Part shown: in pieces, positions 29,113 through 41,062 of the stretch | How positions within the stretch are numbered: position 1 is the stretch's first letter | Layout of the letters: each line of letters starts with the position of its first letter | Assembly: GCA_016189025.1 (NCBI GenBank) | Contig: JACPGS010000003.1 | Span: 1-41,062 of the forward strand | DNA: 41,062 bases | From: Candidatus Magasanikiibacteriota bacterium | GTDB taxonomy: Bacteria; Patescibacteriota; Patescibacteriia; Magasanikbacterales; GWA2-37-8 | Direction: 5' to 3' | The notes under the pieces: model-generated | What the model saw: the letters and a program-made list of their open reading frames with translations, nothing else | Told to the model about the DNA's origin: nothing | Databases searched by the model: none | Made by a program: the position numbers and the translations under genes

Positions 29113-29475
29113 ATGGAGCAAAAACAGCCAAAAATCTCACTTAATTTTATCGCTGGCATCATTAGCGTTGTTGGATCGTTCCTGTGGGTAAGGCAGGGTA
29201 AGCAAGTATTGCCGGTATTCCAGCTAAAAATGCAGGCAGAAAATAAACAGCTTTTAGAAATAATCAAAGCAAGGCTTGGTTTGCCAGAAAAAATTTATCA
29301 ATATGCCCACCAAAATCGGCACTATGCGCTTTTACTGGTAAGAAAACGCTCTTCTCTTGAAAAACTCATTATCCCGACTCTTAAAAACAAGCTCTACGGG
29401 CCAAAACAAGCCCAATTTAATCGCTGGATGGATAAATTCACTAAAGCAAAAGGTGATTCGTTACCGTCAAATTAG
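29113..29475 (+). CDS. Degenerate LAGLIDADG homing-endonuclease-like protein
   Basis: The 120-residue protein aligns with single-motif LAGLIDADG enzymes. FIAGIISVVGSFLW replaces the usual LAGFIDGEGSF, followed by VFQLKMQAENKQLLEIIKAR, a Y-rich strand, LEKLIIPTLKNK and a KQAQFNRWMD helix. The catalytic Asp and Glu of the motif are Ser and Val here, so nuclease activity is unlikely. It may be a domesticated DNA-binding protein. A short AGGA lies just before the ATG. It is bracketed by two parS-like palindromes. Confidence 0.7.
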   Translation: MEQKQPKISLNFIAGIISVVGSFLWVRQGKQVLPVFQLKMQAENKQLLEIIKARLGLPEKIYQYAHQNRHYALLLVRKRSSLEKLIIPTLKNKLYGPKQAQFNRWMDKFTKAKGDSLPSN

Positions 29476-29560: not shown

Positions 29561-29584
29561 TTTGTATACACTATTGTATACAAA
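29561..29584. promoter_or_regulatory. 24-bp palindromic operator-like site
   Basis: Perfect 10-bp arms TTTGTATACA and TGTATACAAA around CTAT. The same architecture recurs twice at 40.7-40.9 kb with a few changes. It lies between the LAGLIDADG-like gene and the AbiE terminator. Confidence 0.6.
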
Positions 29585-29681: not shown

Positions 29682-30407
29682 CTACCCCCGCTCAATTGCC
29701 ATCAAATAATTCCGTAACAGAAAAATGGTTTCTTCCCGCAATTTTTTCCGCACCCATATTTTTTCTTTCGCATCCAAAAGCTCCCCTAACCCGCGCATTA
29801 TTTCATTGTCTTTTACCCGGGAAACTAAATCTATGCAGTCGCGCAAATGTTCGGCAATGCTCTTTTTTACTCTGGCTTCTACGGATTTTTTATCAAAACT
29901 CCAGTTATTTTTCGCAAAAAAATAGATGTCATAAATATCGCGCGGCACCATTTGTGGCCGTTCCGTCAAGGCAACTAATTTATTGGCAAACATATAATCA
30001 GGCTTGACTACCAACATCGGAGTACCCAATAGATCCCGAAATTCATAATGCTCTGGCAAATTAGCTTCTGCCGGGCGCACGTTAATCTCAATTTTTATAT
30101 TACGATCCTCTTTGCCATAGGACAAGAAAAAATATAAAGTAAAAAATTTGACGGCCTGATCTTTGATTGTACCGTACTGTTCAGCGATGCTCTCTATTTT
30201 AGAAAAAACCAATTCTTTATTTTTTTCCGTCGGATTCAATAAATCAAAATCCAAATCAACCGAAAACCGGGGAAGATTGTAAAAAAAATAAGCACAAGTA
30301 CCGCCTTTAAAACCTAAAAGCGGCGCCAATGAGGTGTCGGCATAGACATCTTTTAAGATTCTTCCCATTGTTGTCCGGTGTTTTTCTTTATCCAGAATCG
30401 TTGACAT
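29682..30407 (-). CDS. abiEii: AbiEii-type nucleotidyltransferase toxin
   Basis: In the 241-residue protein, the motif FKGGTCAYFFYNLPRFSVDLDFDLL (about 33-57) gives the KGGT and SxDLDFD signatures of the AbiEii/DUF1814 family. The second half contains KPDYMFANKLVALTERPQMVPRDIYDIYFF, the family's K-A-R-D-D region. It likely transfers nucleotides to tRNA acceptor ends or another target and causes growth arrest. It overlaps the upstream AbiEi gene by 20 bp, the usual type IV toxin-antitoxin order. Confidence 0.88.
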   Translation of the reverse strand: MSTILDKEKHRTTMGRILKDVYADTSLAPLLGFKGGTCAYFFYNLPRFSVDLDFDLLNPTEKNKELVFSKIESIAEQYGTIKDQAVKFFTLYFFLSYGKEDRNIKIEINVRPAEANLPEHYEFRDLLGTPMLVVKPDYMFANKLVALTERPQMVPRDIYDIYFFAKNNWSFDKKSVEARVKKSIAEHLRDCIDLVSRVKDNEIMRGLGELLDAKEKIWVRKKLREETIFLLRNYLMAIERG

Positions 30408-30969
30408 AATCCTGATAATATTTATCTAATCGCTTGATCAGCTGACGATTATTATATATTTTAACCAACTCAAAGCAAACCGGCCATTTTAACGGACGCA
30501 GATTGTCAAAGTAATATCCGGGGGCCAGATAAATCATATCCAAAAAGGCGCGCTCCGGCGTAGCGATGCTGATATTGCCGCTGTTTATTACTCCGCGAGG
30601 ATTATACAATACGACATCCTTTAACTTGCGAAAGGTATATTTATTGCCCTGGATTCTGATGTCTCTGGCCCAGGGGCCGGCAACAAAAATTGTTTCGTAG
30701 TACTGAAAAATCATTCCGGCATCGCGAAAAACCGTTTCAAAACTGATATACGACGGGGTGTAGAGGCTGGTGGCCAATTCTCTCGGATCATAATTTTTAT
30801 CTTTGGCAAATATGCCCCGAGTTAAGCGTCTTAAATAGCCTCGCTTAACACAATAGGCGACTCTATTTTTTAGCTTATTTTCATTAGTTTCCTGCCAAAT
30901 CAGCGCCAAATCCTTATAGTTTACAATCGTATTTTGGCTCTGATAAAGCAACTTTACGAAATTTTCCAT
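30388..30969 (-). CDS. abiEi: AbiEi-type antitoxin/transcriptional regulator
   Basis: In the 193-residue protein, an N-terminal winged helix (NENKLKNRVAYCVKRGYLRRLTRGIF, about 30-55) is followed by the AbiEi C-terminal antitoxin domain (SYISFETVFRDAGMIFQYYE; IATPERAFLDMIYL). The start at 30969 is favoured because the longer frame runs through the promoter. Antitoxins of this type repress their own operon by binding inverted repeats, and a 9-bp inverted repeat overlaps the promoter here. Confidence 0.88.
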   Translation of the reverse strand: MENFVKLLYQSQNTIVNYKDLALIWQETNENKLKNRVAYCVKRGYLRRLTRGIFAKDKNYDPRELATSLYTPSYISFETVFRDAGMIFQYYETIFVAGPWARDIRIQGNKYTFRKLKDVVLYNPRGVINSGNISIATPERAFLDMIYLAPGYYFDNLRPLKWPVCFELVKIYNNRQLIKRLDKYYQDYVNDSG

Positions 30970-30978
30970 ATTTGTAAA

Positions 30979-31034
30979 CTGGAAGTATGAAATATTACTA
31001 CTTCCAGTATACATTATTTGGTAACTCTTGTCAA
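30979..31034 (-). promoter_or_regulatory. AbiE promoter with operator
   Basis: TTGACA (31034-31029), 17 bp, TATACT (31011-31006). CTGGAAGTA (30979-30987) and TACTTCCAG (30999-31007) form a perfect 9-bp inverted repeat that covers the -10 edge and transcription start, an ideal autorepressor site. Confidence 0.8.
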
Positions 31035-31057
31035 GGTACTGTAAAAAACATAATCCG

Positions 31058-31468
31058 CTAGTTAAAAATCTTTTGCAATACGTCAGCCAGCTCAAGGCGG
31101 TTACGATACAAATATACCTTGGCCATTTTATTGCCCTTGATCATTGCGGAAAGCTTGTAAGTATTTTCACCCCAATAAAGGCAGCAAACGCGCTTGTTCA
31201 AATTGAGCGCCTGAGCGATTAAATAACCAACGCCCAGACTAGGTACCGTAACCTCTGCCACCACGACATCGCTAGTTTTGAGAAGCTCCAATTCACGATC
31301 ATGAATCTCTTCTTTGGTCAGATTAGTTTCGCCATAATCGGAAATAGTCTCATCCGCCACTTGTGCTGAAAGCACAGTGCCATATTTTTTCAACCCAGAA
31401 ACAATTTCACTATATTGCGGCTGATGAATACGCCCGCCGCGAATGGCACCGATAAAATATATATTCAT
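31058..31468 (-). CDS. DNPH1/Rcl-like 2'-deoxynucleoside 5'-phosphate N-hydrolase
   Basis: In the 136-residue protein, YFIGAIRGGR at the start forms the substrate loop. AEVTVPSLGVGYLIAQAL (about 70-87) holds the catalytic Glu and the SLGVGYE-like motif of the nucleoside 2-deoxyribosyltransferase/DNPH1 fold. It probably hydrolyses the glycosidic bond of deoxynucleoside monophosphates. Its start overlaps the end of the TrmB-like gene by 4 bp, so it is co-expressed with that regulator. Confidence 0.78.
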   Translation of the reverse strand: MNIYFIGAIRGGRIHQPQYSEIVSGLKKYGTVLSAQVADETISDYGETNLTKEEIHDRELELLKTSDVVVAEVTVPSLGVGYLIAQALNLNKRVCCLYWGENTYKLSAMIKGNKMAKVYLYRNRLELADVLQKIFN

Positions 31469-39695: not shown

Positions 39696-40106
39696 TTACA
39701 CCTCCTGGGTAATAGTTTTTTTACACTCCACGCAGGCGCTGGAGGTGGGCCGCGCCAACAGGCGCCGCTCTTCAATCGGCTGGTGGCAATACTTGCAAAT
39801 GCCGTAGCTGCCGTCTTTCAGCTGCTGCAGCGCCCGCTTCACGTCGCGCAACAGGCGCTCCAGGTCTTGCTCAATGGAAAGATTGGCCGCATATTCCGCC
39901 ACTTCGGCGGCATTTTCGTCATCCTTGTCGCCATAATCCGGGAAAGTGCTGTTAAAATCGTCGGCCACATGAGGATTCTTTTTGGTAAAACCGGCCAGCC
40001 CATGCTCCAGCTTGGCCTCCTCTTGCGACAGCAAGCCCTTGATTTTGCTTAAAAAATCAGCCGAAAAAACCGCGATGGACCGGGTAGCAGAAGAATTTTT
40101 GGGCAT
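39696..40106 (-). CDS. DksA/TraR-type C4 zinc-finger protein
   Basis: In the 136-residue protein, an N-terminal helical coiled coil (about 20-95, acidic) precedes a C-terminal zinc finger CKYC-x17-CVEC. Related proteins bind the RNA polymerase secondary channel and tune transcription, or belong to the YteA/TraR groups. The first gene of the unit, it has a TTGACG-N17-TATACT promoter. Confidence 0.88.
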   Translation of the reverse strand: MPKNSSATRSIAVFSADFLSKIKGLLSQEEAKLEHGLAGFTKKNPHVADDFNSTFPDYGDKDDENAAEVAEYAANLSIEQDLERLLRDVKRALQQLKDGSYGICKYCHQPIEERRLLARPTSSACVECKKTITQEV

Positions 40107-40253: not shown

Positions 40254-40305
40254 AAAAAAAGGCGAGGGTGCCACAAAATATATAATTTCAATGGTTCTCG
40301 CCTTT
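40254..40305 (-). terminator. Terminator of the ~370-nt RNA
   Basis: On the minus strand AAAGGCGAG (40305-40297) pairs with CTCGCCTTT (40266-40258), and T continues to 40254. A competing perfect hairpin AATTTCAA/TTGAAATT (40284-40291/40304-40311) holds the 5' arm in its loop and could oppose termination. Confidence 0.65.
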
Positions 40306-40625
40306 GAAATTGTCCGGGCGAGCACCGATTCGTCTAGCGACGAGCCGACTACAATCACCCTAGACAATAACCTCCGACCGCCTGAAAGGTAGTACCCCAG
40401 ATCAGTTTCCCCGATCTGGTCGGGGGCCCTGACTTTAATTGGGGATACCGAGCAAGAGGTGCGGAGTTACCCATAACGATCTGGAAACCAGGTCGTAAAT
40501 TCTCCCTGGGGGAAGAATAAAAAACGGGCAAATCCACACAATTTCTTGCCAAGCCTAGGTTCGGCATCGCCTACTGCTAGGCGGAAAGCAGTGATGGAGG
40601 TGTAGATTGCAAAAGAACAACTACG
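40254..40625 (-). ncRNA. Predicted ~370-nt structured non-coding RNA, family not recognised
   Basis: This is bounded by a perfect promoter and a terminator with a T7 run. On the minus strand there are hairpins GCCTA/TAGGC, ACGA-CTGG/CCAG-TCGT, CCAGATC/GATCTGG (competing with CCCCGA/TCGGGG), TCGTC-GCTA-GACGA and an outer TTGTC/GACAA. No credible gene is present. The size would fit tmRNA or RNase P RNA, but I find neither the tRNA-like end and tag of tmRNA nor the GAGGAAAGUCC core of RNase P, so I leave it unnamed. Confidence 0.65.
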
Positions 40626-40631
40626 TGATAT

Positions 40632-40660
40632 ATTATATCAAGTCTTAAAAATAGTGTCAA
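40632..40660 (-). promoter_or_regulatory. Perfect consensus promoter of the ~370-nt RNA
   Basis: TTGACA (40660-40655), exactly 17 bp, TATAAT (40637-40632) with an upstream TGA on the minus strand. This is the strongest promoter match in the window, as expected for an abundant stable RNA. Confidence 0.85.
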
Positions 40661-40745: not shown

Positions 40746-40769
40746 TTTGTATAGACTAGTGTAGACAAA
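40746..40769. repeat. 24-bp palindromic repeat, copy A
   Basis: Arms TTTGTATAGA and TGTAGACAAA around CTAG. An identical copy lies 114 bp away (identity extends to 26 bp with the preceding AG), and a related site is at 29561-29584. Confidence 0.85.
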
Positions 40770-40817: not shown

Positions 40818-40858
40818 TTATCCCCAAAAAGTGCCACTTATACACCAAGTTATCCACA
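40818..40858 (+). promoter_or_regulatory. Cluster of DnaA-box-like 9-mers
   Basis: TTATCCCCA (40818-40826), TTATACACC (40838-40846) and TTATCCACA (40850-40858) are in the same orientation. The last is a perfect DnaA box. The flanks are AT-rich and contain TTAGCTAA palindromes. It may be an origin-like or DnaA-regulated site; dnaA itself is not in the window. Confidence 0.5.
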
Positions 40859-40859
40859 G

Positions 40860-40883
40860 TTTGTATAGACTAGTGTAGACAAA
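40860..40883. repeat. 24-bp palindromic repeat, copy B
   Basis: Identical to copy A and starts 2 bp after the perfect DnaA box. Confidence 0.85.
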
Positions 40884-40936: not shown

Positions 40937-41062
40937 TCAATGCACCACCTCGTTAATAACTTCGTTAGGACTTTTGTAGTTTAAACACTTCCTCGGCCGG
41001 TTGTTCAGCTTCTCTTGAATCTCGTAAATATCTCGGTCAGTCAGTTGGGATAAGTCGGTTTT
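40937..41062 (-). CDS. IS30-family transposase, C-terminal fragment (5' part beyond window)
   Basis: The 41 residues to the stop contain DIYEIQEKLNNRPRKCLNYK followed by SPNEVINEVVH, the typical end of IS30 transposases (the NNRPRK/GYKTP-like motif after the third catalytic residue). The N-terminal part and one insertion-sequence end lie outside. The other end should lie between here and the DnaA-box cluster. Confidence 0.85.
   Translation of the reverse strand, partial: KTDLSQLTDRDIYEIQEKLNNRPRKCLNYKSPNEVINEVVH

Follow-up and report, generated by a model that had tools for sequence, protein, structure and literature searches.

The window analyzed here (a stretch of 41,062 nt, taken in full, from a Candidatus Magasanikiibacteriota contig) contains a locus with the features of a stand-alone structured RNA gene, present as a single copy in the source genome (Table 1). 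An earlier note on this DNA had claimed a perfect extended promoter that drives a gene-free region dense in hairpins, and each of these elements was recovered. The promoter is found on the minus strand with every consensus position matched, the roughly 372 nt downstream of it hold no open reading frame exceeding chance length, and the predicted fold is more stable than that of all 100 shuffled sequences (-149 versus -110 kcal/mol; z = -6.3; equal stability in 0/100). The transcript would end at a GC-rich hairpin followed by a T-run at 40260-40254. We rejected a protein-coding reading, as the longest open reading frame of the RNA is no longer than those in shuffled sequences, and a comparison across homologs revealed no mutual resemblance among their longest frames. 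The locus therefore has its own promoter and terminator and no coding potential, the combination that we require of a stand-alone structured RNA. At the edge of the window, an open frame at 40937-41062 runs off the contig end; it found no match in Pfam, and we presume a similarity to the terminal part of an IS30-type transposase.

Table 1. Coordinates of the features discussed, as positions in the window.
Feature	Position	Strand	Remarks
Structured RNA gene, stand-alone, ~372 nt	40254..40625	minus	Start and end inferred from the -10 box and the T-run, respectively
Promoter TTGACA-N17-TATAAT with TG extension	40632..40660	minus	Consensus match 12/12
Core domain, a three-way junction of closing helix P1 with the P2-P3 and P4-P5 arms	40371..40600	minus	Alignments A1 and A4; covariation
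3' domain with conserved UCUCGCC-like segment and terminator hairpin, then T-run	40254..40370	minus	
dksA/traR-type zinc-finger gene, conserved neighbor	39696..40106	minus	Own promoter-like site at 40173-40145
Operator-like palindrome, proximal copy	40746..40769		
DnaA-box-like TTATCCCCA	40818-40826		
Exact DnaA-box-like TTATCCACA	40850..40858	plus	Between the operator-like palindromes
Operator-like palindrome, distal copy	40860..40883		
120-aa single-motif LAGLIDADG_1 protein	29113..29475	plus	Possible member of the same regulon
Palindrome, third copy in the window	29561..29584		Beside the LAGLIDADG gene

Conservation and structure of the RNA

A DNA search returned two weak matches over the same segment of the RNA, and the surroundings of both had the same promoter, conserved blocks and terminator layout, upstream of dksA. 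The homolog set was drawn from the regions upstream of dksA in genomes of the family, which gave 20 alignable homologs, ranging in length from about 290 to 380 nt across the family and nearly all retaining a TTGACA-17-TATNNT promoter. A covariance model of the RNA core (R1) scores 65.8 bits at the source locus (40379-40591) and finds matches in 20/25 family genomes; a diverged copy in G002 (L052), scoring 20 bits, brings the total to 21/25. When 381 genomes of the class were sampled, R1 matches passing strict filters were confined to this same family, with the caveat that these filters also lose the known diverged copy. The sole result of a pattern scan of genome contigs was a Candidatus Magasanikbacteria contig. 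Two family genomes (G006 and G008) have dksA without the RNA upstream, and in two others (G019 and G020) neither was found; these 4/25 genomes lack the RNA or it escaped detection in them, and it is therefore not indispensable throughout the family.

A three-way junction of helices P1-P4 is common to the 20 homologs, as are a 3' domain and a terminator hairpin. The RNA of the source genome has additional sequence inserted between P1 and P2. Inspected by eye, the outer pairs of P1 vary, reading CCTCC/GGAGG in the window and CCTTCC/GGAAGG, GTTTCC/GGAAAC or CATTCC/GGAATG elsewhere, and the helix also includes ACTGC/GYGGT. P2 is formed by CAAGAA/TTCTTG, P3 is a long GGATT/AATCC hairpin, and P4 is formed by GGTAWCCYC/GRGGTANTACC. 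An automatic RNAalifold structure of alignment A4, in which CTTG was paired with CAAG, was set aside in favor of this P1/P2 arrangement because a covarying P2 could be read among the sequences (CAAGGA/TCCTTG, GCAGT/ACTGC, CGGAGAA/TTCTCTG). In A4, which was built from sequence only, 17/32 core pairs were changed on both sides compared with 8.2 expected, and the covariation score was 0.305 versus 0.193, with neither the score nor the pair count reached in any of 500 shuffles. Every slid version of the core structure gave far lower covariation. Doubly changed pairs made up 12/13 of P3 alone and 6/7 of the terminator stem. Part of this signal can stem from the relatedness of the homologs, and the structure was derived from the very sequences in which the pairs were later counted, its P1/P2 arrangement partly by eye. 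As far as sequence comparison can tell, conservation with covariation marks this as a real structured RNA. Viral contigs contained four pattern matches; the region L107:7576-7722 has a weak R1 match (21.7 bits, with a good P4 and poor P2 and P3) that is probably due to chance and could also be a diverged relative, and L106 has a partial match of 14.8 bits.

Two kinds of alternative pairing had been proposed in the earlier note, namely a pair of mutually exclusive stems and a hairpin competing with the terminator. Both of the exclusive stems exist, but a switch between them has no support from covariation. The CCCCGA/TCGGGG hairpin sits within the conserved helix P4, and CCAGATC/GATCTGG would draw bases from that same helix (CCCC/GGGG); since the exact stems of the switch were also not seen among the homologs, the latter pairing is probably incidental. 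The complementarity of CTCGCC and GGCGAG on which the terminator competition would depend is real and kept in many homologs, but arms swapped between sequences did equally well in 56/500 trials, so that covariation does not support the competition. Both proposals were rejected as unsupported.

This result bears on the possibility that the RNA acts in cis on dksA as a leader or attenuator, in which sensing of a signal would cause the terminator to be bypassed and dksA to be expressed. Such a role would suit the position of the RNA, which in nearly every homolog precedes dksA in the same orientation, as well as the segment able to compete with the terminator hairpin, even though that competing pairing is the one without covariation support. 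The RNA ends in a terminator, however, dksA has a separate promoter-like site of its own in most genomes, a VIT-family gene intervenes between the two in one genome, and the distance in another is about 1 kb, for which reasons we consider a dksA leader unlikely. Another possibility is raised by short conserved stretches, such as UCUCGCC, that P1-P4 leave unexplained: these could be unpaired segments through which a regulatory RNA binds target mRNAs, the remainder of the molecule serving as a scaffold. Conserved helices extend through most of the RNA, however, beyond what base-pairing sRNAs usually need, and we regard this role as quite improbable.

Relation to known RNA families

The earlier note left open whether the RNA was a very divergent member of a known family or a new one, having found no signatures of tmRNA, RNase P, SRP or 6S RNA. 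Searches with Rfam 15 gave no match in the window at gathering thresholds and nothing convincing at E-values up to 5, and 16 homologous loci likewise had no match in the part that carries the RNA, permissive thresholds included. Weak permissive matches (PreQ1 and others) were discarded, being mostly on the opposite strand, far below the cut-off and chance-like in appearance. None of the models for RNase P RNA (RF00010), tmRNA (RF00023), SRP RNA (RF00169 and RF01854) and 6S RNA (RF00013) matches the locus; the tRNA-like domain and tag reading frame by which we would recognize a tmRNA were not found there. RNase P RNA and tmRNA, which are of similar length and have a housekeeping-type promoter and terminator, are instead both encoded at other loci of the source genome (G000:C11:10266-10718, 82.6 bits, E 8e-26, below the curated cut-off; and G000:C14:64169-64588, 129.5 bits). 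Taken together, the lack of any Rfam match, the presence of RNase P RNA and tmRNA elsewhere and the conserved, covarying structure support the second branch of the alternative, a new RNA. Literature searches uncovered no report of it.

We extended the search for SRP and 6S components to 24 relatives (genomes G000-G013 and G025-G034, many of them nearly complete). Neither the small nor the large SRP RNA model found a match in any of these, and the M-domain of Ffh (PF02978) was likewise detected in 0/24, compared with 14/14 control genomes. A motif scan of two completely read genomes, which lacked a positive control, identified no Ffh/FtsY-like GTPases. The order may thus be without a signal recognition particle, with the reservation that FtsY was looked for by motif only. 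SRP RNA was rejected as the identity of the RNA in the window, given that no model matched, that the domain IV pattern occurs just at chance level and that the Ffh M-domain is missing. The 6S RNA model also found nothing in the 24 relatives (0/24), but the same model misses 9/14 control genomes, and the absence of 6S RNA is therefore not proved.

A divergent 6S RNA, or another known housekeeping RNA missed by the Rfam models, would be in keeping with the size, promoter and terminator of the locus, and with neither 6S nor SRP RNA detected in the lineage, such a role could be vacant. Against this stand the missing Ffh M-domain, which makes an SRP RNA unlikely, the RNase P RNA and tmRNA already accounted for, and a distribution confined to one family. 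6S RNA, moreover, forms one long hairpin with little branching and a bubble at its center, in contrast to the covarying three-way junction observed here. We judge a missed known RNA to be very unlikely. The resemblance to 6S RNA is one of general type: both are stand-alone, have a strong promoter, are likely to be abundant and would act as folded RNA, but the new RNA has about double the length and is branched, where 6S RNA is a single bubbled hairpin. OLE and raiA-motif RNA (ModT), which were found by comparative genomics and function together with proteins or through complex folds (PMC9723947, PMC11706538), are likewise large, structured, stand-alone bacterial RNAs; the new RNA differs from them in size, fold, lineage and neighborhood, and has no Rfam match. 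It resembles the broad class of large housekeeping-like RNAs (6S, OLE, raiA), and belongs to none of those for which membership could be tested. Large structured RNAs that have no known relatives are seldom encountered, and genetics has hardly any access to the candidate phyla radiation.

Operator-like sites and candidate regulators

The operator-like sites upstream of the RNA promoter are copies of a 24-bp palindrome, TTTGTATACACTAGTGTATACAAA, which occurs at just six sites per genome in the two completely read genomes (1.22 and 1.02 Mb) and at none in shuffled genomes. The six sites are distributed over three loci: two at the RNA promoter, three at the promoter of a gene for a small HTH protein and one at a LAGLIDADG gene. 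Similar palindromes precede the RNA promoter in two copies at 19/21 loci and in one copy at 2/21; two of these 21 loci have one copy that is weak (6 mismatches). The distances between paired palindromes are mostly stepped (101-102, 112-115, 122-125, 134-136 and 148 bp, with 140 and 45 bp as exceptions), and the center of the proximal palindrome lies 15-16, 75-79, 87-88 or 97 bp from the -35 box. The best spacing period is 11.2-11.4 bp, slightly above 10.5, by a statistic that ignores shared ancestry. This stepping suggests phased binding, perhaps with looping. DnaA-box-like sequences are usually found near the palindromes upstream of the RNA. A replication origin at the RNA, which these boxes had suggested, was rejected: in G021 and G017, the GC-skew minimum and a DnaA-box cluster lie about 8-11 kb from the RNA, and the locus is therefore origin-proximal, yet not the origin.

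The gene with three palindromes at its promoter encodes an HTH_17/MerR-like protein of about 113 amino acids (G000:C25:41992-42506, L172; G021:C3:22155-22743, L152), the protein itself being encoded at about 42165-42506 of G000:C25. One of the palindromes in G000 stands immediately upstream of the start codon, where an autoregulatory site would be expected. We infer, in the absence of binding data, that this protein is the best candidate regulator of the RNA. In G000, a gene for an ECF sigma factor is located upstream of the HTH gene in divergent orientation.

Sequence comparison shows an RNA gene that stands alone, is conserved and covaries, and has a set of operator-like sites to itself. Its high expression, its action in trans, its partnership with protein and a control exerted by the HTH protein and DnaA are inferences made without expression data. 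We think it probable that the locus represents a new, lineage-specific family, comprising a trans-acting, housekeeping-like structured RNA under a dedicated and probably autoregulated DNA-binding controller and perhaps DnaA. The RNA would be abundant and act in trans as a folded molecule, most likely complexed with protein in the manner of 6S or OLE RNAs. Its level would be set by the dedicated HTH-type regulator, which would also control its own gene and may bind in pairs of dimers along a single face of the helix, looping being possible; DnaA is a possible further input. The covariance model, the fixed genomic place and the very small operator set name likely regulator and partner genes, and thereby make expression and binding directly testable.

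It could also be that the palindromes are bound not by the HTH protein but by the LAGLIDADG protein. Its gene, which is followed by one palindrome, has further copies at G021:C4:138801-139397 and G017:C5:9666-10245. Judged by eye, the usual catalytic acid of the LAGLIDADG motif seems to be replaced in the copies from the window and G017, so that the protein may bind DNA as a regulator and not cut it. A link between the homing-endonuclease fold and gene regulation is known from WhiA-type LAGLIDADG regulators (PMC3781837, PMC11701221), with which the protein in the window shares this fold; in contrast to these, it is a single-motif protein of only 120 amino acids, and a regulatory role is suggested solely by the neighboring palindrome. 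A bolder reading, which we hold to be improbable, is that the RNA forms the core of a lineage-specific ribonucleoprotein that takes over part of an SRP- or 6S-like global task in an order without detectable SRP or 6S RNA, and that it shares a three-locus regulon with its own regulator and a domesticated homing-endonuclease-like protein. Positions 29682-31095 of the window contain a gene for an AbiEii-type nucleotidyltransferase and a preceding open reading frame, a possible type IV toxin-antitoxin pair.
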